A stretch of 64,000 nt of DNA, from contig NZ_CP066783.1 of NCBI RefSeq assembly GCF_019186805.1, positions 3,857,501-3,921,500 on the forward strand, read 5' to 3'. Origin of the DNA: Comamonas fluminis. GTDB lineage: Bacteria; Pseudomonadota; Gammaproteobacteria; Burkholderiales; Burkholderiaceae_C. The notes under the pieces were generated by a model that did no database searches, was not told the origin of the DNA, and saw only the letters and a program-made list of their open reading frames with translations. Of the stretch, positions 9,129-23,799 are shown piece after piece. The translations under genes and the position numbers were made by a program. Position 1 is the stretch's first letter, and every line of letters starts with the position of its first letter.

Positions 9129-9770
9129 TCAACCCAGCAGCGCCTGCTGCTCGATATTGAAGGCGTAAATCTCACTCATGGGCAGCGGCCTGCGGTCGCT
9201 GGTTTCCACGCTGCCTTCCTGCGTCCACAGAAATGGGTAAAAACCAAAGCCCTGATCTGGCGCCAGCGCCTGCACATCCTGCTGCCAGCTGGCCCAGCGC
9301 ATATATTCATAGAAATCGGTGATGCGATCACTCAGCGCCCACTGCACAAAGTCGGAGTAGCCGCACTGCAGCGGCGTCCACTGCAGCGACTCGGGGTCCA
9401 AGTAGTAAATATTGCCCATGTCTTCGCCCAGCGCTCCACCATTGATGGCAAAGAAGCCGCCCAGCGCGTCATCGGCCACCAGCAAAAAGCCCTGCGCCCG
9501 CCCCTGATTCCAGTCGCGCAGATTGCGCGGCAGCCGCTCATGACCCGAGCCCAGAATGCGCAGCCAGCCGTGGTCAATCAAAATGCCGCCCGTCTCATGC
9601 GCAATCGCCCCCATGGGCGAGCGTGTGGTCACCTGCAGGCTCAGCAACACCTCATCGGCTTGGTCAGAGGCTGGCAACAGCTCGGCGGGACGCTCGGCCT
9701 CCTCAATCCATTGCCTGACCAGGGGCATGGCGGGGTCATCCATAGAAATCAGCTCCTGCAAACTGCGCAT
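9129..9770 (-). CDS. DUF2625 family protein
   Basis: The 213-residue protein starts MRSLQELISMDDPAMPLV, the conserved opening of DUF2625. It continues with GGILIDHGWLRILGSGHERLPR and FAINGG-type motifs of that family. Function is unknown. The ORF is open further upstream, but the extra 34 residues are not family-like, so I use the ATG at 9770. The candidate mobile segment begins about 106 bases upstream of this start, so the native promoter may have been displaced. Confidence 0.85.
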   Translation of the reverse strand: MRSLQELISMDDPAMPLVRQWIEEAERPAELLPASDQADEVLLSLQVTTRSPMGAIAHETGGILIDHGWLRILGSGHERLPRNLRDWNQGRAQGFLLVADDALGGFFAINGGALGEDMGNIYYLDPESLQWTPLQCGYSDFVQWALSDRITDFYEYMRWASWQQDVQALAPDQGFGFYPFLWTQEGSVETSDRRPLPMSEIYAFNIEQQALLG

Positions 9771-9882
9771 GATGAACTTTCCGAGTTGAGGTGCGTCAAA
9801 TGCTATGCCATCAGAAAGCATCTCCTTGGCAGCAACTGTCAGTCCCTGTAAAAATACGTTGCAGTGCAGCAATTACTGTCGA

Positions 9883-10011
9883 TTCTCACTGAGTCTTGTA
9901 CTCGCCTCCACAAAAAATCAACGGCTTAGCGCTGCGTGAAGAGGCTAGTTTTGTACCCACTTCTCACTGAGTTTTGTACTTTCCGGAATTTTTCTCACTC
10001 AGTTTTGTATT
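9883..10011. repeat. Left-end array of three 20-bp repeats
   Basis: TTCTCACTGAGTCTTGTACT (9883-9902), TTCTCACTGAGTTTTGTACT (9961-9980) and TTCTCACTCAGTTTTGTATT (9992-10011) are direct repeats. A half site, AGTTTTGTAC, lies at 9947-9956. They are inverted relative to the right-end copies and look like transposase binding sites. Confidence 0.8.
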
Positions 10012-10235
10012 TTCCGAAGTCAGCTGCAGAAATCAGCGAATAGTCCTCGCAAACATATGTAAACGCCACATCTCAAATAGCACTACAGCCCATTGTCTGC
10101 AACCCGTAGATGTTCTATGAAGCCGTTGCCTCAATAGTTTTAAAAATGTCTCACGGCGAGCAGTCGCCGCGCAGATTTCACCGCAGATTTTCGACATCAG
10201 CTGCCAAAGTTGCCAGCGCAGATGTCCGGCAATAA

Positions 10236-10276
10236 AGCCCGAGCCGATTCATTCATGAGTCGCTCGGGCTTTTTTG
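10236..10276 (+). terminator. Leader terminator upstream of amiE (probable AmiR antitermination site)
   Basis: AGCCCGAGC (10236-10244) pairs with GCTCGGGCT (10262-10270), followed by a T-run, 142 bases ahead of the amiE start. In Pseudomonas aeruginosa, AmiR binds the leader RNA and prevents termination ahead of amiE. AmiR is encoded in this operon, so a terminator at this place is what that model predicts. The exact ANTAR target hairpins were not identified with confidence. Confidence 0.7.
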
Positions 10277-10417
10277 TTGTCCGTTTTTCGCATTCCCGTT
10301 TTCGGACCGATATCTGGACCGCTGGCGGAGCTTTGCCGACGCTGCCCTGAAATCCTTGCGCTGTAACTGCCAGCCGGTAAGTCATACCTCATTACCTCGT
10401 CAACCAGGAGTACAGCC

Positions 10418-11455
10418 ATGAGACACGGAGATATTTCCAGCAGCAACGATTGCGTAGGCGTAGCGGTAGTCAACTACAAAATGCCACGCCTGCATACCAA
10501 GGCCGAAGTGCTGGACAACTGTCGCAAGATCGCCGACATGCTGGTCGGCATGAAACAAGGCCTTCCAGGCATGGACCTCGTGATCTTTCCAGAATACTCC
10601 ACGCACGGAATCATGTACGACTCCAAGGAGATGTACGAAACTGCGTCCGCTATCCCCGGCGAAGAAACCGCAATCTTCGCGGACGCCTGTCGCAAAGCCA
10701 ATGTATGGGGCATCTTCTCGCTCACCGGAGAGCGCCACGAAGAGCACCCCAACAAGGCTCCATACAACACTCTGATTCTCATGAATAACCAAGGCGAGAT
10801 TGTGCAGAAGTACCGCAAGATCATGCCTTGGGTGCCCATCGAAGGCTGGTATCCGGGCGATTGCACGTATGTAAGCGAAGGCCCCAAGGGCATGAAGATC
10901 AGTCTGATCATCTGCGACGATGGTAACTATCCAGAAATCTGGCGTGACTGTGCCATGCGCGGGGCCGAACTCATCGTGCGCTGCCAAGGCTATATGTACC
11001 CAGCCAAAGAGCAGCAAATTCTGGTTTCCAAGGCGATGGCCTTCATGAACAACACTTATGTCGCCGTAGCCAATGCGGCCGGCTTCGATGGTGTTTATTC
11101 CTACTTCGGTCACTCTGCCATTATTGGCTTCGATGGCCGCACGCTGGGCGAGACCGGCGAGGAGGAGATGGGCATCCAGTACGCCGAACTCTCCAAATCA
11201 CTGATCCGTGATGCACGCAAGAACGGCCAGTCGCAGAACCACTTGTTCAAACTAGTACATCGCGGATACACAGGCACCATCAACTCCGGCGATGGCGACA
11301 AAGGCGTAGCCGCCTGCCCTTACAGCTTCTACTCGCAATGGGTCAACGACCCCGAAGGCACGCGCGAGATGGTCGAGTCATTCACACGAACGACCGTGGG
11401 TACACCAGAGTGCCCAATTGAAGGCATTCCACACGAAGCACCCAAGCACCGCTAA
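10418..11455 (+). CDS. amiE: Aliphatic amidase AmiE
   Basis: This cytoplasmic nitrilase-superfamily enzyme hydrolyses short aliphatic amides such as acetamide to the acid and ammonia. The 345-residue length matches the Pseudomonas enzyme (346). The catalytic triad falls at exactly the known positions: Glu59 in FPEYSTHG, Lys134 in KYRKIMPW and Cys166 in [13 protein letters not shown] lies eight bases before the ATG. It is the first gene of an operon running to amiR and is preceded by a leader terminator. Codon use appears less GC-rich than the flanking chromosome, consistent with acquisition. Confidence 0.98.
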
Positions 11456-11534
11456 AGCATTCATACCTGCTGGCATGGCATCCCTCGGCCCTGCGGGCTG
11501 CCATGCCCTCCGACTCTTTACTTGGAGATAGAAC

Positions 11535-12017
11535 ATGCTAGGTATCGCATTGTTTTTTATTGGTGCCGTGCTGATCGTTAACGGCGTCGGCCTCAGTGGT
11601 CGCATAGAAGCTCGTGACTCCGCCCCCTTCAATCTACTAGTGGGCTTGTTAGCTTTATTTATCAACGCCATTGGCATTCTGCGCGCTGGTGCCGATCCGG
11701 ACTTTTTTGGCGCTGCAGGTGGTCTGCTGTTTGCTTTCACCTACCTGTATTTGGCAGTGGTGCAGTGGTGGGGCCTCAAAGGCGTTGGCCTTGGCTGGTA
11801 TTGCCTGTTTGTGGCAATCAGTGCTCTAGCGTTTGCATCGACGGCCGGGGACATCCGCGTTATCACCATGTGGTTGATTTGGGCAAGCCTGTGGTTCTTC
11901 TTTTTTCTGGCGCTTGGACTAGGTAAGCAACTGCGCTTTCTTGCGGGCTATACGGTACTGGTCGGTATTGCGACTTGCTGGGTGCCGGGCCTGATGATGT
12001 TAATGGGGAAATGGTGA
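11535..12017 (+). CDS. amiS: AmiS/UreI family amide or urea channel
   Basis: The 160-residue membrane protein has six predicted hydrophobic segments and opens MLGIALFFIGAVLIVNG, a hallmark of the AmiS/UreI family. These hexameric inner-membrane channels let urea or short amides through. Segments such as GLLFAFTYLYLAVVQWW carry the aromatic residues that line the UreI pore. It follows amiE by 79 bases with GGAGA before the ATG. In Pseudomonas the gene is last in the operon; here it is second. It ends five bases before the AAA+ gene start. Confidence 0.93.
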   Translation: MLGIALFFIGAVLIVNGVGLSGRIEARDSAPFNLLVGLLALFINAIGILRAGADPDFFGAAGGLLFAFTYLYLAVVQWWGLKGVGLGWYCLFVAISALAFASTAGDIRVITMWLIWASLWFFFFLALGLGKQLRFLAGYTVLVGIATCWVPGLMMLMGKW

Positions 12018-12022
12018 ACAAA

Positions 12023-12865
12023 ATGAACGCAAATATTCCTCTGCAGGCCACTGCAGACAACGACCCTCTGGCTGATTACCGCTTGAACAAAGAGCCGTTT
12101 TACCGCCCCTCTCACAATGAGATCGAGCTCTACGAACAGGCCTATCGGCACCGCATGCCATTAATCCTTAAAGGCCCTACAGGTTGCGGAAAAACCCGAT
12201 TTGTTGAGCGTATGGCGTGGGCGCTAAAACGCCCGCTCATCACACTGGCCTGCAACGAAGATATGACAGCCTCGGATCTCGTGGGTCGTTATCTGCTCGA
12301 TGCCAATGGCACCGCATGGCACGACGGACCTTTGACCATGGCAGTGCGTTATGGAGGCATTTGCTATCTGGACGAAGTTGTAGAAGCACGACAGGACACT
12401 ACCGTCGTCATCCATCCATTGACCGATGCACGCCGCGTACTACCTCTCGACAAGAAAGGTGAGGTTGTGCACGCACATCCTGATTTCCAGCTCGTTGTCT
12501 CCTACAACCCAGGCTACCAAAGCAGCGCAAAAGACATGAAGCCCTCCACGCGCCAACGCTTTGCCGCTCTGGAGTTTGACTACCCTGATGCGGCTACTGA
12601 AGCCGATATCGTCTCGCACGAAACAGGTATTGAGCGAGCCCAAGCCGAGCGACTGGTAGCGCTGGCGCACAGCACTCGCGAACTCAAGAACCGGGGCCTC
12701 GACGAAGGGGCATCCACCCGCATGCTCATCTATGCAGGCTTGCTCATGCGCGACGGAGTCACGCCAGCGGCCAGTTGCGACATGACGATCACGCTGGCTT
12801 TGACAGATGACCCCGACACCACACATGCGCTGAAAAAACTTGTTCAAGCACAGTTCGGCAGTTGA
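12023..12865 (+). CDS. NorQ/NirQ/CbbQ-type MoxR AAA+ ATPase
   Basis: The 280-residue protein (from the ATG at 12023) has Walker A GPTGCGKT, Walker B ICYLDEV, the family NEDMTASDLVGRYLL segment, and a C-terminal GASTRMLIYAGLLM lid motif, all typical of NorQ/NirQ/CbbQ. Such proteins pair with a VWA protein to remodel or insert metal into a target enzyme (nitric oxide reductase, Rubisco). Its partner is encoded next. In Pseudomonas amidase operons a different AAA+ protein, AmiB, takes this slot. I chose 12023 since GGTGA lies five bases upstream; starts at 12011 or 11975 are possible. Its target here is unknown; the amidase or AmiS are inferred candidates. Confidence 0.88.
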   Translation: MNANIPLQATADNDPLADYRLNKEPFYRPSHNEIELYEQAYRHRMPLILKGPTGCGKTRFVERMAWALKRPLITLACNEDMTASDLVGRYLLDANGTAWHDGPLTMAVRYGGICYLDEVVEARQDTTVVIHPLTDARRVLPLDKKGEVVHAHPDFQLVVSYNPGYQSSAKDMKPSTRQRFAALEFDYPDAATEADIVSHETGIERAQAERLVALAHSTRELKNRGLDEGASTRMLIYAGLLMRDGVTPAASCDMTITLALTDDPDTTHALKKLVQAQFGS

Positions 12866-12885
12866 AAGGCTAAAAGGCACAATCC

Positions 12886-14688
12886 ATGCCCCCATCTACC
12901 GCCCTTAACTCCAGTGACATCGGCTCTTCCCCTTGGATCGACAAAGACGACGCCCACACCTTCGAGCGATTGGCTATGTTGGCCTCGGGCTTGGCACTAA
13001 CTCGGGTGCAAGTCCAGCCATTGCAAACGGCCAGCACACCAATAGCGGCCGGAGGGCCTTTTAATGGCGCGACGGTCAAACCAGCCTCTGCGCTACGGGC
13101 CATCTTGTTGCCGCCGACGGACACCACTTCAGGCGGTGCAGCCCGACTGCTGTTACCGCAGCTACCAGACCTAAGCCAGACTGAGCGTACACATCAGCAC
13201 ACAGCAATGGTTGCCCACGCTGCCGCGCACCTACTATATTCACCAACTCGCCAACCCAGCCAGGCCTTGAAGCCCATGGGCATGACCGTCGTCTCGGCCA
13301 TAGAAGATGCCCGAATCGAACGCTTGCTGCTGCGCGACTACCCTGGCGCTTACCACTGGCTCAGCGAGCAAGTCGCAGCAGAGCCTGATGCAAAAAACCT
13401 GAGCTTTCTCGCCTTCATGGCACGGCTCGACCGCATCTTGCTCTTGCCAGCAAGCCAAAGTGGCAATCACTGGATCAACAAGGCACATGAGCTCTTTGAA
13501 AGGACAATACAAGCTCACGGTCTCGAAGATTACAGCGCTTTCCGTGCGATATCTTCCATCTTGGCCAACGACCTTGGCCAGATGCGTGTTCGCATGGATC
13601 CGCAGCACTATGCGGCTCCCACGCTCTACCGCGATGACAACAGCTATCTCTGGGAGCATCCCGAATCCGACGACAACAGCGATGAAGCTTTGTTACTAAC
13701 TCAGACAAGTGCGCGGCCGCAGCAGGCACAATCAAGTCGAGAGCAAGAATCCCCAGAGCAGCCTCAACGCCCCCAGGCCGAAGACTTTGAAATCGCCCGC
13801 TTCCACTACCCAGAATGGGACCATCGAAGCGAGCATATGAAGCCAGACTGGTGCACGGTAATCGAGAAATATCCAGCCTGGCAAGGCCTAAGCGAAGTCA
13901 ATCACTCGCGCCTTCCCAGCAGCACTCGTCTCGAAAACTTGGCCCTACCCAGCGCCCGCCAACTTGACCGCCGCAACCGACTGCGCCGGCAATGGGAAGG
14001 TGAAGATGTAGACCTCAACGCAGCTATTGAAGTACAGGTCGATATGCGCCTGAATCTGAGACCTGACCCTCGTCTTTTCATGCGCGCAGGCAAAGGCCCT
14101 CGACCCACTAGCATGCTGGTTTTGCTCGACATCTCCGAATCGGTCAACGACATTAGCTCACATGGTCAATGCTTGCTGGATCTAGAAAAGCAAGCGGCTC
14201 AGATACTGGCCCAATCCAACACGCGTAACACTGGACGCTTGGCCATTCATGCGTTTTCATCCAACACCCGCGCCGAAATTAACTACTATCGCTTGCTTGA
14301 TTTTGGTCAGCCGCACACCACCACTACCACGGCCATGATCCAGGCTTTACGTGGACGTTTTTCCACTCGTCTGGGGGCGGCCTTACGCCACTCCAGCGGT
14401 CTACTGCGTAGCGAACCCGAAGGCCAGCGCACGCTGCTCGTTGTGACTGATGGTGCACCGTCTGATGTCGATGTGCACGACAAAAAATATCTAATAGAAG
14501 ACGCGCGCCACGCCGTTCAGGAAGCCAAACGAGCCGGTATTCGCGTTTGCTGTTTGGCCGTCGATGCACAAGCCGACACCTATGTCCGCCATATCTTTGG
14601 CTGGCGCGATTACGGTATCGCCGACGACACCCGACAACTGCTACCAAGGCTGACGAATATGAGCGCTCGCTTAGCCGCAGGACGTTAA
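12886..14688 (+). CDS. NorD/CbbO-type von Willebrand factor A domain protein
   Basis: The 600-residue protein has an N-terminal helical region, a low-complexity Gln/Glu linker near residues 270-295, and a C-terminal VWA domain. The metal-ion-dependent adhesion site is intact: DISES at about residue 420, a later TRLGAAL threonine, and VTDGAPSD. This is the layout of NorD and CbbO, adaptors that deliver a MoxR ATPase to its substrate. It follows the ATPase gene by 20 bases with AAAGG ahead of the ATG. Pairing inside an amidase operon is unusual to my knowledge. Subunit and target are inferred only. Confidence 0.87.
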   Translation: MPPSTALNSSDIGSSPWIDKDDAHTFERLAMLASGLALTRVQVQPLQTASTPIAAGGPFNGATVKPASALRAILLPPTDTTSGGAARLLLPQLPDLSQTERTHQHTAMVAHAAAHLLYSPTRQPSQALKPMGMTVVSAIEDARIERLLLRDYPGAYHWLSEQVAAEPDAKNLSFLAFMARLDRILLLPASQSGNHWINKAHELFERTIQAHGLEDYSAFRAISSILANDLGQMRVRMDPQHYAAPTLYRDDNSYLWEHPESDDNSDEALLLTQTSARPQQAQSSREQESPEQPQRPQAEDFEIARFHYPEWDHRSEHMKPDWCTVIEKYPAWQGLSEVNHSRLPSSTRLENLALPSARQLDRRNRLRRQWEGEDVDLNAAIEVQVDMRLNLRPDPRLFMRAGKGPRPTSMLVLLDISESVNDISSHGQCLLDLEKQAAQILAQSNTRNTGRLAIHAFSSNTRAEINYYRLLDFGQPHTTTTTAMIQALRGRFSTRLGAALRHSSGLLRSEPEGQRTLLVVTDGAPSDVDVHDKKYLIEDARHAVQEAKRAGIRVCCLAVDAQADTYVRHIFGWRDYGIADDTRQLLPRLTNMSARLAAGR

Positions 14689-14837
14689 AACGTCGGACAG
14701 AAAATTACAACCCTTGCCTCACCCACGCCTCCACATACGTCGCGTGCGCTAAGCTAGGTTCCGCCCACTAGCATCTTGGGATTACTCCGTAGCCGATCCT
14801 CAGCAATCACTGTTGAAGCATAAACCAGAGAACAACC

Positions 14838-15983
14838 TTGTCCTACACCGACCCCTTGCGCATAGGTATTCTTTTCTCGGAAACCGGTACTACCTCGACC
14901 ATTGGTCGCTCGCAGTTGAAAGGCAGCTTGCTAGCCATTGATGAGATCAATGCCGCCGGCGGCGTGCTCGGACGCGAGCTGATCGCTGTACGCCAAGACC
15001 CAGCTTCCAACCCAGCACGCTACGCACAACTGGCCGAGCAACTGATCGTCCAGGACAAGGTCAACACCGTCTTCGGCTGCTATATGTCAAGCAGCCGCAA
15101 GGCCGTGCTGCCCGTAGTGGAAAAATGGAACAAATTGCTGTTCTACCCCACCCTCTACGAAGGCTTCGAGTTCTCGGCCAACATCATCTACACCGGTGCA
15201 GCCCCGAACCAGAACAGCGTACAGCTGGCTGATTTCATGACCAGCAGCTTTGGCGCGCGCGCCTACCTCATTGGTTCAGACTACATCTACCCCTATGAAT
15301 CCAATCGCATCATGCGCGAGTTGGTACTACAACATCCCGAAGGGGAAATTCTGGGTGAACGCTATCTGCCACTATCGGCAACCGAGCACGACTATCGGGC
15401 CGTTATGGAAGATGTGCGCCAGAAAAGCCCTGACTTCATCTTCTCCACCGTGGTCGGAGACTCCACCTCCCAGCTCTACCGAGCCTATGCTGACGCAGGC
15501 TTCAATCCCAAAGAGATGCCCATTTGCAGCCTTACCACCTCAGAGGCTGAAATCGGGCAAATGGGCTTTGAAGTTGCGGCAGGCCACATCACTTCGGCAC
15601 CGTACTTCCAGTCAATCCAAACCGAAGCCAACCAGCGCTGCCTAGCCCACCTCAAGCGCCTGTTTGGCGACGACTGCCGCCCAAATCTATGCTGGGAAGC
15701 CTCGTACTTCCAAGTACACATGTTTGCCAACGCTTTCCGTCGCTCGGGCAGCGACACTATTAGCGAGTTACTACCGCACCTGCTGGGCAGTGAGTTCGAT
15801 GCACCTCAGGGGTGCGTTCGAATCGACCCCGGAAACCACCACACTTGGGTATACCCACGCATAGGTCGCGCCAATGCGCAAGGTGAGTTCACCATACTGC
15901 GCGAAGCCAAACGCGCTGTCTCGCCCGACCCTTACCTGGTTACCCACTCGCTCGGCGACTGGACAGCCAAACAGGAGGTCTGA
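14838..15983 (+). CDS. amiC: Amide-sensing negative regulator AmiC
   Basis: The 381-residue periplasmic-binding-fold protein resembles Pseudomonas AmiC throughout: IGILFSETG at the start, VFGCYMSSSRKAVLPVVEKW, PTLYEGFE, GAAPNQNS, GSDYIYPYESN and SLTTSEAEI. AmiC lacks a signal peptide, stays in the cytoplasm, holds AmiR inactive and releases it when acetamide binds. The start codon is TTG at 14838; no ATG lies upstream in frame near it, and the homologous N terminus begins here. A 149-base gap separates it from the VWA gene. The stop is two bases before the GTG of amiR. Confidence 0.95.
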   Translation: MSYTDPLRIGILFSETGTTSTIGRSQLKGSLLAIDEINAAGGVLGRELIAVRQDPASNPARYAQLAEQLIVQDKVNTVFGCYMSSSRKAVLPVVEKWNKLLFYPTLYEGFEFSANIIYTGAAPNQNSVQLADFMTSSFGARAYLIGSDYIYPYESNRIMRELVLQHPEGEILGERYLPLSATEHDYRAVMEDVRQKSPDFIFSTVVGDSTSQLYRAYADAGFNPKEMPICSLTTSEAEIGQMGFEVAAGHITSAPYFQSIQTEANQRCLAHLKRLFGDDCRPNLCWEASYFQVHMFANAFRRSGSDTISELLPHLLGSEFDAPQGCVRIDPGNHHTWVYPRIGRANAQGEFTILREAKRAVSPDPYLVTHSLGDWTAKQEV

Positions 15984-15985
15984 GC

Positions 15986-16609
15986 GTGAACCGCCAACAA
16001 CCGCGCGCCACCTCACCGCACCTCAAAGAGCTGCGTCAACTCAAAATCACGCTGATGCACCCCGATGATGCCGACGGTCTGTTGCTGGCACAGCAACTTC
16101 AGCGTATCGGCTGTCAGGTTCGCAGCGTATGGCCACCTGTACAACACCTGCCAGAAGACACCGATATCGTCCTACTGGCCGTGCGCCCCGACTTCCTGCA
16201 CCTTCCCATGAGCTGGGCCCACAGCGAACAAGCACCGGCCTTGGTGGCCGTAGTGAATTACGAGAACCCCACCATCGTTTCTACAGTTCTGGACCTCAAG
16301 GCCCAGGCTGTCTTGCCGTCGCCTATTCGGTCCTTCGGTCTGCTTTCAACTTTGGTAGTTGCACGTCAGAACCATAAAGAAAGCCGCCAGATTCATCTTC
16401 ATGTACACAAGCTGCAAAACAAGCTGCTTGGCCAGCGTCGAGTGACTGATGCCAAAGCCATTCTCATCGCAACCCACCGGGTCAGTGAAGAACGGGCCTA
16501 CGAAATGCTGCGCGAGCAGGCTATGAACAAACGCATCTCGATTGAAGACATTGCCCAAACCATCATCAGCGCAAGTGAATTACTGGGAATGAAAGGGCCG
16601 CGCGAGTAA
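15986..16609 (+). CDS. amiR: ANTAR-domain antiterminator AmiR
   Basis: The 207-residue protein has a pseudo-receiver N-terminal domain, a coiled-coil near residues 120-150, and a C-terminal ANTAR RNA-binding domain with AKAILIATHRVSEERAYEMLREQAM and IEDIAQTII. AmiR binds the amiE leader RNA to prevent termination. The start is GTG at 15986, preceded by AGGAGG with seven-base spacing, and it almost abuts amiC, matching the AmiC-AmiR complex. The IS3-family element begins directly after the stop, so anything formerly downstream has been separated. Confidence 0.95.
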   Translation: MNRQQPRATSPHLKELRQLKITLMHPDDADGLLLAQQLQRIGCQVRSVWPPVQHLPEDTDIVLLAVRPDFLHLPMSWAHSEQAPALVAVVNYENPTIVSTVLDLKAQAVLPSPIRSFGLLSTLVVARQNHKESRQIHLHVHKLQNKLLGQRRVTDAKAILIATHRVSEERAYEMLREQAMNKRISIEDIAQTIISASELLGMKGPRE

Positions 16610-16679
16610 GAGCGCAAGGTAATCCCCCCGTAAATCCTGAGCCCTGAGAAGTAGAGACTCTCACAGGAGAATCTCTACC

Positions 16680-16946
16680 ATGAAGAAATCACGTTTCACC
16701 GACAGCCAGATCATTGATGCGCTCAAGCGAGCAGAAGCCGGTCTGACGGTTCCAGAGCTCTGCCGGGAACTCGGCATCAGCTCGGCAACGTTCTACAAGT
16801 GGCGAGCCAAGTTCGGCGGCATGGATGCCTCGCTCATGGCCCGCATGAAAGAGCTGGAGCAAGAGAACCAGCGACTTCGCAAGATGTACGTCGAGGAGAA
16901 ACTCAAGGCTGAGATCGTCTCGGAGGCTCTCGCAAAAAAGTGGTGA
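16680..16946 (+). CDS. IS3-family transposase OrfA
   Basis: The 88-residue protein begins MKKSRFTDSQIIDALKRAEAG, with the helix-turn-helix VPELCRELGISSATFYKWR followed by a leucine-zipper-like helix. This is the standard IS407-group OrfA, which recognises the IS ends. The A6G run at 16934-16940 near its end is a likely slippery site for a minus-one shift into OrfB, which overlaps by seven bases. Confidence 0.9.
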   Translation: MKKSRFTDSQIIDALKRAEAGLTVPELCRELGISSATFYKWRAKFGGMDASLMARMKELEQENQRLRKMYVEEKLKAEIVSEALAKKW

Positions 16947-17392
16947 AGCCATCTCGCCGACGCGAGATGGCTCTTCAAGCAGTGCAGCAGCACGGCGTGT
17001 CGATCAAGGTGGCCTGCCAGGCGTTTCAGATCAGCCAAGCCTGCTATCGATACGTGGCTCGCCGCAGCATTGAGGACGATGAGATCGCCCAGTGGCTGCT
17101 GCGCCTAACGGACAACAAACGCAATTGGGGCTTTGGCCTTTGCTTCCTGTACCTGCGCAATGTGCGAGGCTTCCGATGGAATCACAAGCGTGTTTACCGT
17201 GTCTACCGAGAGCTGGAACTGAACCTTCGTATCAAGCCCCGCAAACGGTTGGTGCGAGAAAAACCTGAACCACTGACGGTGCCGGAAACCTGCAACGAAG
17301 TCTGGTCGATGGACTTCATGCACGACCAACTTGAGGGCGGGCGCAGCATCCGGCTGCTCAATGTCATCGATGACTTCAACCGCGAGGCGCTA
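16940..17392 (+). pseudogene. IS3-family transposase OrfB, truncated
   Basis: About 150 residues of the DDE transposase remain, including the helix-turn-helix start, the first catalytic aspartate in WSMDFMHD and the second strand NVIDDFNREALG. The frame is then cut by the IS5-family insertion at 17391-17393 and ends in foreign residues. The remaining catalytic Asp and Glu are absent, so it is inactive. Confidence 0.88.
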
Positions 17393-17438
17393 GGGCCCGT
17401 CATCAAATCAACCAGATGACAGCTGCAGCCAGATGAAT

Positions 17439-18654
17439 TGTAGAAGTTCAGACTTGATCTGACAGTGGGCCTTGCCAACAGGTGAGGTTTCCCGTTTTGA
17501 TAAGGGTACGAATCTTTATCAATCCGGGCGCAAAGCGCCCAACGGAGAAACCTCATGAACAGTTTCAACCAAACCATCATCCGGCACAAGGTCGGCCTGC
17601 TCAATCTGGCCAGTGAGCTGGGCAACATCTCCAAGGCATGCAAAGTCATGGGCGTCTCCCGTGACACTTTCTATCGCTATCAGCATGCCCACGAAGAAGG
17701 TGGCGTAGAGGCCCTGATCCAGATATCTCGGCGCAAGCCCAATCCCAAGAACCGGGTTGATGACGCCGTCGAAACGGCCGTCATTGCCTATGCCCCGGAG
17801 CAGCCAGCGCATGGACAGTTACGTGCAAGTAATGAACTACGCCAGCGGGGCATCTTTGTGTCTCCATCCGGTGTGCGCTCCATCTGGATGCGTCATCAAC
17901 TGGCCAGCTTCAAACAGCGTCTGTCCAACCTGGAGGCTGAGGTCGCCAAGACTGGCGCCGTACTCACTGAATCCCAGGTGACAGCCTTGGAAAGAAAGCG
18001 GGAAGATGACCTGGCCTGCGGAGAAATCGAAACCGCTCATCCCGGTTATCTTGGTAGCCAAGACACCTTCTATGTGGGCACGATCAAGGGCGTCGGGCGC
18101 ATCTACCAGCAAACTTTCGTAGATACCTATTCCAAGTGGGCTGCCGCCAAGTTGTACACCACCAAGACGCCGATCACGGGAGCTGACTTGCTCAATGACC
18201 GCGTCCTGCCGTTCCTGGCAGAGCAAGGCATGGGGTTGCTGCGAATCTTGACAGACAGGGGCACAGAGTATTGCGGCAAGGCCGAAACGCACGACTACCA
18301 GCTATATCTGGCAATCAACGACATTGAGCACACTAGGACCAAGGTGCGTCACCCGCAAACCAATGGCATCTGTGAGCGGTTCCACAAAACGATCCTGCAA
18401 GAGTTCTACCAGGTGGCGTTCAGGCGCAAGATCTATCGATCCATTGACGAGCTGCAGATGGATCTGGACGACTGGATCAATTACTACAACGGCCAGCGTA
18501 CGCATCAAGGCAAGATGTGCTGTGGCAGGACACCGATGCAAACGCTGATTGATGCAAAGGAGGTCTGGGACGAGAAGGTAAAAGCACTCAATTAATCTGA
18601 CAGCCGTACCGACCGAAACGGGAGCAACTGTCAGATCAGATCGGAACTTCTACA
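17439..18654 (+). mobile_element. IS481-family element, complete
   Basis: The element is 1216 bp long. It opens TGTAGAAGTTC and closes with the inverted GAACTTCTACA; further partly matching bases around ATCTGACAG extend both terminal repeats. It contains one full transposase gene and is inserted into IS5-family element 1. No target duplication is evident at the junctions, which suggests loss of a few bases of the host element. Confidence 0.9.
17555..18595 (+). CDS. IS481-family transposase
   Basis: The 346-residue transposase has an N-terminal helix-turn-helix (SKACKVMGVSRDTFYRY). The RNase H-like DDE domain has aspartates in FVDTYSKWAAAK and LTDRGTEYC and the glutamate in NGICERFHKT. The length and the HTH-DDE layout are normal for IS481. 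The frame is intact, so it may be active. It stands alone within its terminal repeats. Confidence 0.94.
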   Translation: MNSFNQTIIRHKVGLLNLASELGNISKACKVMGVSRDTFYRYQHAHEEGGVEALIQISRRKPNPKNRVDDAVETAVIAYAPEQPAHGQLRASNELRQRGIFVSPSGVRSIWMRHQLASFKQRLSNLEAEVAKTGAVLTESQVTALERKREDDLACGEIETAHPGYLGSQDTFYVGTIKGVGRIYQQTFVDTYSKWAAAKLYTTKTPITGADLLNDRVLPFLAEQGMGLLRILTDRGTEYCGKAETHDYQLYLAINDIEHTRTKVRHPQTNGICERFHKTILQEFYQVAFRRKIYRSIDELQMDLDDWINYYNGQRTHQGKMCCGRTPMQTLIDAKEVWDEKVKALN

Positions 18655-19363
18655 GCAGCGGCCGTCTTGTCATACCTCGTCGCGATGCACCGATACTGTT
18701 TTAACCGGGCAAAGAAGTTCTCAATCAGATGACGCTCTTTGTATATGTGCCGGTCGTGCTCTCTACTTTCTTTGCGACCGTGGCGACTTGGAATGACAGC
18801 TTGCTTGCCCTTCTCTAACAGGGGTGCAATTACCCGGTCCTGAGCGTCATAGGCTTTGTCTGCGAGCACAGCATTAGCCTGAATGTCTTTCAAAAGCACA
18901 TCTGCGCCTTCCAAGTCTGAGGCTTGACCGGGAGTCAAATGAAAGCCAGTTGGGTTGCCCTGCGCATCAACCGTCGCGTGGATCTTGGTACTCAAGCCTC
19001 CCCGGCTACGTCCGATGGCATGCTTTTGAATCCCCCTTTTGCGCCAGCGCTGTGCTGATGGGCACGCACGATGGTTGCATCGATCATGGTGTATTCGTTG
19101 TCAGCTTGGGCACTGATCGTTTCAAACACACGCTGCCAAATACCAGAACGGCTCCAGCGCATATGCCGTGTATGAATGATACGGAAATCACCAAAGCGCT
19201 CAGGCAGATCCCGCCATGCAATGCCAGAGCGATAGCGGTAAAGCACTGCATCTACAAAAAGGCGGTTGTTTTTACCAGGAGCACCGACGTGTCCAGCCCT
19301 GCCGGGCAGAAGGTCTTTGATGCAATCCCACTGTGTATCTGTCAAGGCGTATCTACGAGTCAC
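18655..19363 (-). pseudogene. IS5-family transposase (element 1), interrupted by IS481
   Basis: On the minus strand the first frame begins MTRRYALTDTQWDCIKDLLPGR at 19363 and the second continues at 18995 with MSTKIHATVDAQGNP. An AAAAG run near the junction would allow the minus-one shift giving the usual IGRSRGG join. The C-terminal RYDKTAA is followed by IS481 sequence. The catalytic D, D and E are present, but the protein is severed from its last dozen residues. Confidence 0.88.
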
Positions 19364-19407
19364 GCTATCAATAACGAAGCAACTATCGAATTCGATGACA
19401 CGCCCTA

Positions 19408-20236
19408 GGGCGTGTTCACATTAATAGTTGACTGCTCATGCAGGCGCTGACAATCCAGCGCCTGCATGTACATCTCTCGCTCTCAATTCAAGCGCATCCG
19501 CCATCTGTTACCTAAGCCCCGTGGCAGTCGTCGTATCAGCCACTATCGCTTGCTCAATGCGCTGGCTTACATGGCCAGTAACGGCTGTAAATGGCGCGCA
19601 CTGCCAACTCGATTTGGCCCATGGCATACGATTTACATGCGTCTGTACCGATGGGCGCACAGCGGCGTCCTGGTGGAAGTACTTGCACATTTACAGCAGG
19701 ACCGACTTAGCCAGTGGTGTGTCCAAGCGTTGAGTCTGGATTCAACCATCGTCAAAGTCCACCCTGATGGCTGCGGGGCTCGCAAAAAAACGGTCCACAA
19801 GCCATAGGCAGGAGCCGGGGTGGCTGGAGCAGCAAGATTCACATGGTGGCCGCCAGTTGTCGAGATGCTTTGGTATGGAGCCTGACAGCAGGCCAAGCCG
19901 GTGATGGCCCCGAAGGCCGTCACCTCATTGAAGTCATTGGCGTCCAAGACGCACCTGTGTATCTGCTGATGGACAGCGCCTACGGCGGCGGTGACTTGCG
20001 AGCTGAGGCACTGGAGCGCAACTTGATACCTGTCGTCCCTGCGCACCCACTGCGCAAACACCCTTGGCAATTGGACAAACGACGATACCGCCAGCGCAAT
20101 GAGATCGAGCGCTTGTTCCGGCGGATCAAGGCTTACCGGCGCATCTTCACGCGCTATGACAAGCTCGATGTTGTGTACGCGACCTTTATCTCAATGGCTT
20201 TGATTTGCGAACACCTGAGGTAATGTGAACACGCCC
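19408..20236 (+). mobile_element. IS5-family (IS427-like) element, complete copy
   Basis: This 829-bp element has perfect terminal repeats GGGCGTGTTCACATTA and its inverse, flanked by TA (19406-19407 and 20237-20238). It abuts IS5-family element 1, sharing the TA between them. A nearly identical copy begins at 61887. Its two frames are joined by an A7 slippery run. Confidence 0.95.
19466..20223 (+). CDS. IS5-family transposase made by minus-one frameshift
   Basis: Frame one (19466-19807) encodes the N-terminal MYISRSQFKRIRHLLP region and the first DDE aspartate in SLDSTIVKVH. Frame two (to 20223) encodes VAASCRDALVWSLTAGQAGD, the second aspartate in MDSAYGGGD and the glutamate in NEIERLFRRIKAYRRI. 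The A7 run at 19784-19790 sits where a minus-one slip restores the conserved IGRSRGGW join. Both frames look intact, so the fused transposase is probably active. Confidence 0.9.
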
Positions 20237-20265
20237 TAGGCCTTCGGTACTTTTGAAGCGCGTCT

Positions 20266-20961
20266 CTAACGCTTTCCCAAGGTCTGTACTACCTGCTTGG
20301 CAGTCGCTTTGGCCGACCCCGGATTTTGTCCGGTGATGAGGCGGCCATCCGCCACCACATACGAGGTAAATGGCAGCAGAGCTTTTTGATAGTGAGCACC
20401 GCGCGCCTTCATTTCTTTCTCTGCGTTATAGGGCATGGACTGTGCCACTCCAGCCAGAATTTCTTCTGCCCACGAAAAACCCGTGACCTGTTTGTCTGCA
20501 ACCAGCAAAGAGCCATCGCTCAGCCGTGTATTGAGCAGGCCGCAGTAGCCATGGCAGACCGATGCAACGATGCGACCTTGCTCCCAGATGCTGCAAGTGA
20601 TTCGCTGCAACCCGACACTGCTGGGAAAATCCCACATCACCGCGTGCCCTCCAGTGAAGTAGATGGCATCGAAATCGCTCGCCAGGATATCGGCAGGTGC
20701 CGCAGTGTTAGCCAGCAAGGCCATGCGCTCTGGGTCATTGAGCCAGGCTTTGGCCGATGCATCGAAGAGCGGCCATTTGAGGGCGCGCGGCTCTAGCGGT
20801 ACGGCGCCGCCTAGTTGGCTAACCAATTGCTGCAGGTAGCCTTGCGCAGCAAACACATCCCAGGCATGGGTCAGCTCCGACAACCATAGCCCTGTGGCGT
20901 GCGAAGAGTCGTCGTAATGCGCGACATTGGTGACGACGTGCAAGATGCGTGGCGTGCTCAT
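20266..20961 (-). CDS. DJ-1/PfpI family protein (type 1 glutamine amidotransferase-like)
   Basis: The 231-residue protein has the DJ-1/PfpI fold with the nucleophile elbow VCHGYCGLL, an upstream GGHAVMWDFP segment and a C-terminal ITGQNPGSA motif. It is closest to the Hsp31-like group, whose members act as glyoxalases or chaperone-like deglycases; activity here is not certain. CAGGAG precedes the ATG by five bases. Its start overlaps the stop of the upstream reductase gene by four bases (ATGA), so the two are coupled. It lies between the IS cluster and the right end of the candidate mobile segment. Confidence 0.85.
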   Translation of the reverse strand: MSTPRILHVVTNVAHYDDSSHATGLWLSELTHAWDVFAAQGYLQQLVSQLGGAVPLEPRALKWPLFDASAKAWLNDPERMALLANTAAPADILASDFDAIYFTGGHAVMWDFPSSVGLQRITCSIWEQGRIVASVCHGYCGLLNTRLSDGSLLVADKQVTGFSWAEEILAGVAQSMPYNAEKEMKARGAHYQKALLPFTSYVVADGRLITGQNPGSAKATAKQVVQTLGKR

Positions 20962-21884
20962 GAAGACTCCTGAGCGATTTGCTTCATGCCCTGTGCGTAG
21001 CTGGTGACAGCAAAGCTGGGAAAGCGGCGCTTGAACTTGGACGAATCAAACACATTGTCGTGTGCGTAGCGTGGAAGCAGCTCACGAAGTTCGCGTACGG
21101 GTTTGGAGACCCATCCAGCAACAACCATCGCCCAGTGGCTTAGCACTTTGTAGTGCGGCTCAACCCCAAAGGTGGTAGCTGCTAATTTCACAAAAGCCTG
21201 ATAGGTCAGCCGCTCATCCCAGCAAGGCAAATGCCAGGTCTGACCATACGCATCTTCTGCATTGCCAATGGCGGCCATGGCTCGGCTTGCATCGGGCGTC
21301 CAAATCAGGGTACGTAGCTTGTCCTCACGCACCGGAATTTTGGCCTTGTGGCCCGCTTTGAGCGGGTCAATTACCAAGGTATTGGTGATACTTTGAGTGT
21401 TTCCGGGGCCATAAAACTCAGGTGCGCGGGCAATGGCGACGGGGATATCGCCGCGTTGCATCTCCGCGAGCACTATCTCCGCCATCAAAGCACGCACATG
21501 CCCCTTGCGCCCCACAGGGGCAAAATTCGTGTCTTCGGTCTGCCGCTGCGCGCTTTGCGGGTACATGTAGGTGTTGTCAAAGTAGACGAATTTGGCACCT
21601 GCTTCCCGCGTGGCATCGAGTGCATTGCGTAGCATGGTAGGAAATTGTCTTTCCCATAACTCGGTGTCTGGTGGCAGACCTGCAGTGAAATACACGACTT
21701 CGCTGCCGCGTACTGCATCCAGGGTTTGCACGGCATTCATCAGGTCAGCAGAGACCAATTCATCGCTATTGTTTACCTTACGTGGATTGCGACTTACCAG
21801 GCGCAGATTCTGCATGTAGTTACGCTTTAATTCACGCGCTAGTTCCACCGCGATTTGGCCATTGGCCCCTAATATGGCTTGCAT
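20958..21884 (-). CDS. NAD(P)-binding SDR-type epimerase/reductase family protein
   Basis: The 308-residue protein has a Rossmann nucleotide-binding start with GANGQIA, an YVVYFTAG-like second strand (EVVYFTAG), and YFDNTYMYP where extended short-chain dehydrogenases carry their active-site region. The substrate cannot be told. It is upstream of, and overlaps by four bases, the DJ-1/PfpI gene; both could handle reactive carbonyl compounds, which is inference only. AAGGGAAG stands before the ATG. Confidence 0.8.
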   Translation of the reverse strand: MQAILGANGQIAVELARELKRNYMQNLRLVSRNPRKVNNSDELVSADLMNAVQTLDAVRGSEVVYFTAGLPPDTELWERQFPTMLRNALDATREAGAKFVYFDNTYMYPQSAQRQTEDTNFAPVGRKGHVRALMAEIVLAEMQRGDIPVAIARAPEFYGPGNTQSITNTLVIDPLKAGHKAKIPVREDKLRTLIWTPDASRAMAAIGNAEDAYGQTWHLPCWDERLTYQAFVKLAATTFGVEPHYKVLSHWAMVVAGWVSKPVRELRELLPRYAHDNVFDSSKFKRRFPSFAVTSYAQGMKQIAQESS

Positions 21885-22748
21885 ATCTTCCCTTGCAGCA
21901 TCTGATGTGATGAGAGGATACGGAGCTTAAGATTCAAGTTGAGTTGAAGGTCAAGCGATAAGACTAATTTCAGGCCGAAAACAAACTCACTGGTTTTCTA
22001 CAGTATTTGGCGTCCCCATCGTGGCGACGGGCCTAAGCACTTTTGCTTGCTTTGGTGCATTAATGAGCGGCCGATTTGCGCAAAAGCGAAGATCAGCTTT
22101 GGGTCGACACGAGCCTGCCAGGGCACGCTGAAGCGGTCCTTCGAGCCAGTGCGTGGCAAACCGCGCAATCGAGCGGCCGGTCCCGAGGGTGAAGCGGCCG
22201 TTCTGGACAAGCAGCCTTCAACGGCTGGTGTTAGCCATTGCTGCCGCTCAAGCACCGAACCGTGAATGGCTCAGATCAGCCTAAAGCAGTTGGCCAGGAA
22301 GTGACTGAGATCTAGCAGGTTACGCGCGACCACCATTGTTGCGAACACTTGGGCAATCACTTGCTCACAACGGGTCAGCAGCAGGCTAGGCCCGCCCAAA
22401 AGCCCATCAGATACCCCATAGCAGCATGCCCAGCAGAACTCGCATGCTGAGCCAGAGTCGCACAATTTGCTTTCGAGTATGGATATCCAGCTCCTGAGAT
22501 AGTCAGCTTGAGCCTGGCACAGCCGCGTCACCACGAAGGCAACAATGGGGAGTACGGACAAAACAACTTCACACATTAAGAATTTCCGGTTTTTTTGAGA
22601 AATTTGCCTAAAAAATAAGCCGATTTAAACCTTTCAAGCATGCGAAATTTATAAAATATTTAATAAAATCATATAGTTACATAAAGTTTGCGATTTATCA
22701 GCAGTACAAAACTCAGTGAGAAAAGTACAAAACTGAGTGAGAACCGAC
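21885..22748. other. Intergenic, probably degenerate stretch ending the mobile segment
   Basis: No convincing gene was found in these 864 bases. Short open frames (for example 22271-22576 on the minus strand) have no recognisable motif and odd composition. Part of the sequence around 22080-22210 looks like decayed coding DNA of unknown origin. The last 180 bases are strikingly AT-rich and lead into the right-end repeats. Confidence 0.6.
22703..22743. repeat. Right-end pair of 20-bp repeats
   Basis: AGTACAAAACTCAGTGAGAA (22703-22722) and AGTACAAAACTGAGTGAGAA (22724-22743) are the inverted counterparts of the three copies at 9883-10011. They are followed by CCGACA, which completes the terminal inverted repeat. 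Confidence 0.8.
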
Positions 22749-22784
22749 AACAATCCCCTCTGTGAAGCACCTACAAAAACCCGG

Positions 22785-22812
22785 GGAACTTTGTCTTTAG
22801 CACTCTCTCTAA
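22785..22812 (+). promoter_or_regulatory. Sigma-E-like promoter of rpoH
   Basis: GGAACTT at 22785-22791 is followed after 16 bases by TCTAA at 22808-22812. This matches the extracytoplasmic sigma-E consensus and its spacing. A sigma-E promoter for rpoH is known in Escherichia coli. The -10 part lies inside the CIRCE operator. Confidence 0.6.
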
Positions 22813-22823
22813 CAGAGTGCTAA
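22797..22823 (+). promoter_or_regulatory. CIRCE operator (HrcA binding site)
   Basis: TTAGCACTC, nine bases, then GAGTGCTAA: a perfect match to the CIRCE consensus bound by the HrcA repressor. It covers the putative -10 and start region of rpoH, 32 bases before the chosen ATG, so HrcA would block transcription and release it on heat shock. Confidence 0.93.
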
Positions 22824-22854
22824 CATGAAGATCATGGAAGAAAGGAAACCTGCA

Positions 22855-23799
22855 ATGAAAACTGCCTCCGGCTCCATTGCTACAGCCTTGGCACCCACGA
22901 ACCCTTGGGCTCTGGTGCCACCGCTGGGCAACCTGGATGCCTATATCTCGGCTGCAAACCGTCTGCCAATGCTCACCCAAGAGGAAGAGCAGGAGTACGC
23001 ACGCAAGCTCAAAGAACACAATGATCTGGACGCCGCCGGGCGTCTGGTGATGTCTCACCTGCGTCTGGTGGTGTCTATCTCCCGCCAGTACCTGGGCTAT
23101 GGCCTGCCTCACGGCGACCTGATTCAGGAAGGCAATGTCGGCCTGATGAAGGCTGTCAAACGCTTCGACCCCGACCAAGGCGTGCGTCTGGTGAGCTACG
23201 CCATGCACTGGATCAAGGCTGAGATCCACGAATACATTCTGAAGAACTGGCGCATGGTCAAGGTCGCTACGACCAAGGCTCAGCGCAAGCTGTTCTTCAA
23301 TCTGCGCTCGATGAAGCATGACATGAAGTCCGATGCCGCCATGGCAGACGGCGATGCTGTCATGCGCGAAACACTGACCGCAGGTGAGATTGACGCCATG
23401 GCGGCCAAGCTCAACGTCAAGCGCGAAGAAGTCATCGAGATGGAAGCCCGCCTGTCGGGTGGCGATGTGCTGCTGGACCCCTCGCCCAGCGATGACGGTG
23501 AGCAGGCCTATGGCCCCATCGCCTATCTGGCCGATGCCAACCACGAACCCACGGCCATGATCGAGTCGCGTCAGCGCGACCATCTGGCGACGGATGGTCT
23601 GTCCATGGCTCTGGAAGGTCTGGATGACCGCAGTCGCCGCATCGTGGAAGAGCGCTGGCTCAAGGTCAACGACGATGGTTCGGGCGGCATGACGCTGCAC
23701 GAGTTGGCTGCCGAGTACGGCGTGAGCGCCGAGCGCATTCGCCAGATCGAAGTGGCCGCCATGAAAAAGATGAAAAAAGCGCTAGCCGAGTTTGCGTAA
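22855..23799 (+). CDS. rpoH: RNA polymerase sigma-32 factor RpoH
   Basis: The heat-shock sigma factor directs RNA polymerase to chaperone and protease genes. The 314-residue protein holds region 2 (HGDLIQEGNVGLMKAVKRFDP), the RpoH box QRKLFFNLR, which separates it from other sigma factors, and region 4 (GVSAERIRQIEVAAMKKMKKAL). I chose the ATG at 22855, with AAAGGAAA upstream, rather than 22825, which falls next to the CIRCE operator. Control appears to be by both sigma-E and HrcA. The mobile-segment right end lies about 35 bases before the promoter. A hairpin terminator follows. Confidence 0.96.
   Translation: MKTASGSIATALAPTNPWALVPPLGNLDAYISAANRLPMLTQEEEQEYARKLKEHNDLDAAGRLVMSHLRLVVSISRQYLGYGLPHGDLIQEGNVGLMKAVKRFDPDQGVRLVSYAMHWIKAEIHEYILKNWRMVKVATTKAQRKLFFNLRSMKHDMKSDAAMADGDAVMRETLTAGEIDAMAAKLNVKREEVIEMEARLSGGDVLLDPSPSDDGEQAYGPIAYLADANHEPTAMIESRQRDHLATDGLSMALEGLDDRSRRIVEERWLKVNDDGSGGMTLHELAAEYGVSAERIRQIEVAAMKKMKKALAEFA

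Follow-up and report, generated by a model that had tools for sequence, protein, structure and literature searches.

A probable transposase-less Tn7-like element next to a CIRCE-type operator upstream of rpoH in Comamonas fluminis

Tn7-like elements carry arrays of TnsB-binding sites at their ends, and most CRISPR-associated transposons (CASTs) insert 50-60 bp away from the site that is recognised (PMC8649781). In VchCAST, the integration host factor (IHF) binds the left end between the first two TnsB sites (PMC10201428). Known attachment sites comprise glmS, yhiN, comM, parE, tRNA genes, guaC, yciA, ffs, rsmJ and plasmid resolution sites (PMC11406308), with comM and glmS also named in PMC10293859, and rsmJ, cobO and others in PMC12452197. 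Here we describe a 12.9-kb segment upstream of rpoH in Comamonas fluminis, located in a window of 64,000 nucleotides (the whole stretch that was analysed; NZ_CP066783.1, positions 3,857,501 to 3,921,500). The segment is very probably a transposase-less member of a Tn7-like family, which the TnsABC/TniQ proteins of an autonomous relative would insert beside the palindrome TTAGCACTC-N9-GAGTGCTAA, whose name and consensus we take to be those of the CIRCE operator (controlling inverted repeat of chaperone expression; Table 1). CIRCE is among the most conserved regulatory DNA elements of bacteria.

The segment (9877-22749) starts with TGTCGA and terminates with CGACA. Arrays of 20-bp TnsB-type sites lie at both ends in an asymmetric arrangement, with offsets of 0/78/109 on the left and 0/21 on the right, in the window as in its relatives, and the sites at 9961 and 22703 are perfect inverted copies of each other. 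An earlier sequence-only reading of the window, which had reported inverted TGTCG ends with three repeats on the left and two on the right, is thereby borne out at these positions. Searching the own 4.9-Mb genome with up to two mismatches returned exactly these five repeat copies and no match to a reversed control pattern, so that the random scatter which the same reading had named as speaking against a transposon did not occur. The segment also differs in character from its flanks, as had been noted, with a GC content of 54.8% against 61.6% on the left and 60.3% on the right within the window. Scans of its proteins agree with the earlier statement that no Tns, Tni or Ist protein was recognised in it and that its transposases belong to smaller insertion sequences (IS): none of these families was found among the scanned proteins of the segment, and the transposases seen can be assigned to IS3 (a remnant), IS481 and the IS5 type (two genes).

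A search for TnsB (TniA) across 53 genomes of the genus led to a full element with a transposase and the same ends, as the sequence-only reading had proposed to look for. It belongs to another species (genome G455, 4897963 to 4959721; 61,759 bp) and lies at the same place as the window segment. Its left end, 93.6% identical to that of the window over 141 bp, has a 1-bp indel and was recognised through its likeness to a 303-bp copy described below. The element is flanked by an exact 5-bp target duplication (ACAAA), its right end stands 77 bp from the rpoH CIRCE, and its genes encode TnsA-TnsB(TniA)-TnsC(TniB)-TniQ-TniQ, of which TnsA (PF08722), TniB and both TniQ score above the Pfam cut-offs. 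The TnsB was recognised by its profile similarity to solved TnsB proteins together with residues D288/D372/E408, which are conserved with D-x35-E spacing in six aligned TnsB proteins. Against solved structures, the TnsB profile gave 4.9e-92 for PseTnsAB (from what we take to be a type I-F CAST), 1.4e-74 for Tn6677 TnsB, 1.1e-31 for the TnsB of 7svw and 1.2e-16 for Tn7 TnsB. No repeated 24-mers 50-75 bp apart were found in the G455 element, and no Cas protein was noticed there, no search aimed at Cas genes having been made.

An element of 42.2 kb with the same layout occupies the rpoH site in G670, from another family of the order, which we assume to be Burkholderiales; it has the duplication CTCAG, its right end stands 60 bp from CIRCE, and its TniA is 47% identical to that of G455. 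The tns operon of G670 (L315, 2929-8359) faces the rpoH-proximal end, opposite to that of G455, so the orientation of the operon is not fixed. A further delimited relative of 19.9 kb, in G306, has the duplication GCCGA and carries TniA and TniQ; its TnsA-like protein gave no Pfam match, and TniB was not identified. Two tandem TniQ genes are present in G455, G670, G128, G268 and G746. Besides the duplications already given, 5-bp duplications were found for G128 (CTAAT), the groES copy of G268 (GCAGA) and G746 (GGCTG), and in G187 the duplication CTCGC was read across two contigs.

The ends themselves recur in other genomes. With one mismatch, the repeat is present in 10 of 399 family genomes, the own genome included (16 matches, against two, in G260 and G305, for the reversed pattern). 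A degenerate pattern applied to one genome per species gave 49 stretches, 14 of them with the paired end architecture. These 14 come from Comamonas, Acidovorax, Paracidovorax, Curvibacter and Hydrogenophaga, all of which we take to belong to the Comamonadaceae, the family in which the sequence-only reading had proposed to search for the repeat. The spacings of 78/31 at the left end and 21 at the right end persist elsewhere although the sequence has diverged, and the left-end spacing of the window is also found in L021, L027, L029, G306 and G670. Furthermore, a perfect IHF consensus stands at offset 39 in 9 of the 11 left ends examined, against 0.035 of 11 expected from shuffles; the consensus and the role of IHF are taken from PMC10201428. 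A scan of further TnsABC-TniQ-type loci in the same genomes (L149-L159) detected no such ends, looking for inverted TGTCG/TGTTG termini on the basis of simple identity returned only noise, and short-end searches of plasmids gave nothing useful.

The place beside CIRCE is a point that the sequence-only reading did not foresee. Right ends were scored with a site matrix, built from the sites of these loci, in the loci from both searches by repeat sequence alone, after dropping four records that duplicate contigs of other loci (L083, L101, L107 and L125). Of 19 right ends, 11 stand 44-69 bp upstream of an rpoH CIRCE, with the right end towards rpoH; in one of them, L025, the CIRCE has one mismatch. 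All 11 rpoH-proximal ends in this set are right ends, and no left end is found there. With up to two mismatches, exactly two CIRCE sites were counted in 22 of 25 genomes of one set and in 23 of the 24 genomes of a second (one or three in the remainder), and the sites whose gene was read lie upstream of rpoH or groES. A genus set found through rpoH, and kept out of this tally and of the 7/12 tally below, holds seven right ends at this place (the window included) among 30 loci listed from 53 genomes, all matching, with one degenerate and one at 133 bp.

A second TnsB lineage, with TGCGGA ends, gave matches in 12 of 398 family genomes at up to three mismatches (13 matches, against four for the reversed pattern, in G085, G124, G272 and G292). 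Once the known left end of G128 is set aside, 7 of 12 matches lie 53-77 bp from CIRCE, and the five misses may include left ends or chance hits; the gene is groES in the six that were read. Two of the seven belong to delimited elements that carry tns genes (G128 and G268), and no TniA was found within about 20 kb of the match in G085, G253, G027 and G004. Still more distant TnsB lineages are found in G746, 58 bp from the groES CIRCE, and in G677, where a TnsA gene lies 1.3 kb from the groES CIRCE and no clean ends were found. Within the TGTCG clade, the right end in G254 is 77 bp from the groES CIRCE, with no left end found. G306 and G030 share a different target, upstream of a GntR/YtrA-like regulator and ABC operon (named by eye), with their right ends 87 bp and 78 bp, respectively, from another palindrome, GGTGTGCTACATCAGCAACACACC (L160, 10.3-10.8 kb; L163, 0.7-1.2 kb); for G030, no target duplication was found. 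An unrooted tree of 24 TnsB proteins has a split, supported at 0.97, that places every CIRCE-associated TnsB on the same side, a side that also includes G030, G306 and six other TnsB outside the target comparison. The rpoH, groES and GntR-type operator targets alternate within the TGTCG subclade, which fits a selector that reads a short operator, and the relatives at the second palindrome would, on this view, point to operator reading as a general mode of the clade. As a separate observation, TGTCG-type right ends in L023 (G226; 13940) and L116 (Hydrogenophaga; 6951) have a common target about 140 bp before an AP2-like gene, which in L023 is followed by an integrase-family protein; this target is possibly a mobile element.

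Elements without a visible Tni gene are not restricted to the window, as delimited examples are found in G325 (8.6 kb), L094 (6.4 kb), G456 (8.1 kb) and at the rpoH site of G268 (9.7 kb, with an IS481 remnant). The 303-bp copy, in Comamonas testosteroni, has no Tni gene and an exact ACAGG duplication; at this length it cannot encode a transposase, which implies that ends of this kind can be mobilised in trans. Judged by eye from translations, the cargo varies among insertions: G325 carries an EF-G-like protein along with regulators, L094 a large sensor-kinase-like protein, and G456 an amidase with an ABC transporter, a combination that also adjoins the left end in C. testosteroni. Sequences matching the 303-bp copy, mostly its ends, occur in 8 of the 53 genus genomes, and in C. 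testosteroni SWCO2 (L108, 1600-2200) a pair of mini-elements, about 0.2 and 0.3 kb long, stand in tandem and have these ends. The sequence-only reading had offered a non-autonomous element, a decayed transposon or a new family carrying catabolic cargo; the non-autonomous option fits best, together with some decay and the catabolic cargo, and the new family falls away.

Starting from the end architecture, the place, the orientation, the autonomous relatives and an empty site (see below), which are read from sequence, we propose a route in which mobilisation in trans, the action of IHF and CIRCE as the sequence read are the inferred parts. TnsB (TniA) from an autonomous relative would bind the three left-end and the two right-end sites, with IHF bending the left end between sites 1 and 2, and TnsA and TnsB would excise the element. 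TnsC (TniB) would connect TnsA/TnsB to one of the two TniQ proteins, the one predicted to mark CIRCE. Insertion would take place about 45-75 bp upstream of CIRCE, with the right end genewards, clear of the CIRCE-adjacent stretch and with a 5-bp duplication. That TniQ may read CIRCE is suggested by position and phylogeny. For this Tn7-like clade of the order as a whole, we consider it reasonably likely that CIRCE is used as the attachment site, one TniQ reading the operator or HrcA bound to it. CIRCE stands before both rpoH and groES, so that, if this is true, each genome would offer two safe harbours, between which transposons could switch and at which they could stack and carry transposase-less passengers.

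Several observations weigh against this interpretation or parts of it. A cognate TnsB is absent from the own genome at the cut-offs used, the sole TniA match there being 26% identical, and the G455 TnsB matches its Pfam family (rve) only below the cut-off. Eight of the 19 TGTCG-type right ends and five of the 12 TGCGGA ends are not at CIRCE, and G030 and G306, from the same TnsB clade, sit at the non-CIRCE palindrome. Among 44 TniA-positive family genomes, 23 of which have CIRCE located, only G254, G128 and G268 have TniA near CIRCE and 20 of the 23 do not; outside the family, G677, G746 and G670 have TniA near CIRCE and the other 13 of 16 genomes do not. The distances to CIRCE spread over 44-77 bp, with one at 133 bp, which is wider than one fixed spacing. 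Finally, the right terminus of the 303-bp copy is altered to CCGAAA, target duplications are absent from G456 and from the rpoH copy of G268, and those of G325 and L094 match in only four of five letters.

Other explanations of the position have to be considered. It is possible, if doubtful, that the TniQ of the same Tn7-like element recognises the promoter of rpoH or its 5' coding region (those of groES in other lineages) and that CIRCE is a mere neighbour, since the known TnsD reads the glmS coding sequence (PMC11406308). CIRCE and the NPW codons of rpoH stand at an almost invariant distance from each other (99-103 bp in the cases measured), which thus cannot tell CIRCE reading from gene reading. 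However, rpoH and groES are unrelated, CIRCE was the only common upstream sequence noticed (by eye, with no motif search), and one TnsB clade alternates between rpoH (G455, G670) and groES (G254). We regard it as improbable that the position results from selection or local DNA features, such as few tolerated gaps or HrcA-bound DNA, and not from a target selector. The insertions do spare CIRCE and the gene, as selection would demand, but 11 of 19 right ends lie in a single orientation at one of about two sites per genome. A rough post-hoc estimate puts this far below chance, to an order of magnitude only, as the distance range was picked after seeing the data and related genomes were treated as independent. 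The tandem TniQ pairs, which resemble known dual selectors, also argue for a target selector. Hardly any credence is left for an IS21-family composite or IS21-driven segment, IS21-like elements having been one proposal of the sequence-only reading. TGT ends with several sites per end would suit IS21, and an IstB fragment exists elsewhere in the genome, but the genome's IstB matches are far from any repeat copy and the delimited relatives with these ends carry TnsA/TnsB/TnsC/TniQ. With no IstA/IstB among the scanned segment proteins and relatives of Tns type, IS21 was rejected, and of the families proposed earlier it is the Tn7-like one that stands.

Genome G441, of the same genus, contains an empty site, in which a DUF2625 homologue (72% identity) comes as close as 46 bp to the rpoH CIRCE, with no break between the flanks. 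The two genes thus adjoin without the segment, and their constant separation, named by the sequence-only reading as evidence against a mobile element, is not observed. G427 has the same junction sequence as G441, with no DUF2625 match in the 3.5 kb examined. Compared with the G441 site, the window shows no target duplication (ATTAC versus ACAAT) and about 4 bp of the target (ACTG) are missing, so the precise joining of 9876 to 22750, which the sequence-only reading had proposed to look for, did not hold; the missing duplication is a further point against the Tn7-like interpretation. As it lacks the 5-bp duplication, we file the window copy as a probable hybrid derivative and not as an intact member, with its left end probably from one of two stacked insertions and its right end from the other. 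Ends that are stacked or adjacent occur commonly in these loci (G456, with two right ends, L105, L108 and L026), and from their frequency we infer that two insertions close to each other, with the part between them later lost, would be the likeliest history. Whether the segment never moved as a unit, and is the remnant of recombination or deletion between at least two stacked Tn7-like insertions with cargo partly from each, we judge to be evenly balanced. The missing duplication, the 4 lost bp, the stacked ends and a repeated end sequence outside the G455 right end speak for it, whereas drift after an old insertion could equally blur a duplication and other rpoH elements with different cargo (G455, G670) are clean units. 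This question concerns the history of the window copy and is compatible with a Tn7-like origin.

With the type I-F3 CASTs (Tn6677/VchCAST, PseCAST), the family shares its nearest solved TnsB and the IHF site between the first two left-end TnsB sites; CASTs also produce 5-bp duplications and oriented insertions, as seen here. It differs from them in its two TniQ and in lying beside CIRCE and not at guaC, yciA, ffs or rsmJ, and the window copy has no tns genes. Tn7 likewise has TnsA/TnsB/TnsC with a TniQ-domain selector, oriented insertion at a conserved chromosomal site and TnsB-site arrays at its ends, but its TnsB is distant, and here the site is not glmS and insertion is upstream of an operator. 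Tn5053/Tn402 elements (TniABQ) share the TniB/TniQ Pfam families and TGT ends. G455, however, has TnsA and two TniQ, whereas a single TniQ is usual in Tn5053 transposons, whose targets are resolution sites (PMC11406308). Tn7017, an I-F3 CAST with a parE-targeting TniQ, resembles the family in having two TniQ, one for the chromosomal site (PMC11406308), but its second TniQ serves CRISPR-Cas, which was not seen in the present family, Cas genes not having been specifically searched for.

Among the open-licence papers listed by literature searches, no title or abstract start pointed to Tn7-like elements that home to CIRCE, and such homing would be the new point. The attachment sites named in the review literature, as far as it was available, include no operator; an operator of two heat-shock genes would, if true, be a new kind of landing pad, and homing would be predicted in other CIRCE-bearing bacteria. 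The family also provides natural TnsABC-TniQ-TniQ systems for studying how TniQ reads DNA, and offers a way to account for the islands of genes that Comamonas and Acidovorax carry upstream of rpoH.

Table 1. Features of the segment and its flanks (window positions).
Feature	Position	Strand	Basis
DUF2625-type protein (DUF name from the sequence-only reading), chromosomal left flank	9129..9872	-	NCBIfam PRK11408 family
Left end: TGTCGA, then TnsB-type sites 9883-9902, 9961-9980, 9992-10011 (offsets 0/78/109)	9877..10011	+	repeat analysis
IHF-consensus site AATCAACGGCTTA, between left-end sites 1 and 2	9916..9928	+	
Aliphatic amidase, cargo	10418..11455	+	NCBIfam PRK13286, 726 bits
AmiS/UreI transporter, cargo	11535..12017	+	PF02293
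CbbQ/NorQ-type AAA ATPase, cargo	11975..12865	+	PF07728, PF08406
VWA-domain protein, cargo	12886..14688	+	PF00092
AmiC-like amide-binding protein, cargo	14838..15983	+	PF13433
AmiR antiterminator, cargo	15986..16609	+	PF21332, PF03861
IS3-type transposase remnant	16940..17419	+	NF033516, partial, below cut-off
IS481-family element, 28-bp inverted repeats 89% complementary	17439..18654	+	NF033577
IS5-family transposase, two open reading frames (ORFs)	18636..19363	-	NF033580 for ORF 18992-19363; second ORF by position only
IS5-family element, perfect 20-bp inverted repeats	19404..20240	+	NF033580 below cut-off, ORF 19466-19807
DJ-1/PfpI family protein, cargo	20266..20961	-	PF01965
NAD-dependent epimerase-like protein, cargo	20958..21884	-	PF01370
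Right end: CGACA terminus and two TnsB-type sites, 22703-22722 and 22724-22743, 21 bp apart (offsets 0/21)	22703..22749	-	
CIRCE operator TTAGCACTC-N9-GAGTGCTAA, putative attachment site, 47 bp from right end	22797..22823	.	
rpoH, chromosomal right flank (start 22825 or 22855)	22825..23799	+	TIGR02392, 394 bits

The cargo of the segment is an aliphatic-amidase operon plus IS debris (Table 1), in which the AmiC label of the amide-binding protein is our assumption from the operon layout. Relatives of the operon on plasmids are just 60-80% identical and none spans 80% of it, and PADLOC run on the window returned nothing of note. The IS481 and the 19404-20240 IS5 copies show inverted repeats, but duplications flanking them are not obvious. 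Elsewhere in the own genome, the strongest of four PF01695 matches is an IstB-like one in a 169-aa frame (G000:C2:858505-858708). Finally, the smaller contig of about 52 kb (G000:C1:25894-28726) carries the 26%-identical TniA together with a TniQ in a 508-aa frame, a pair that resembles a Tn5053/Tn402-type transposon.

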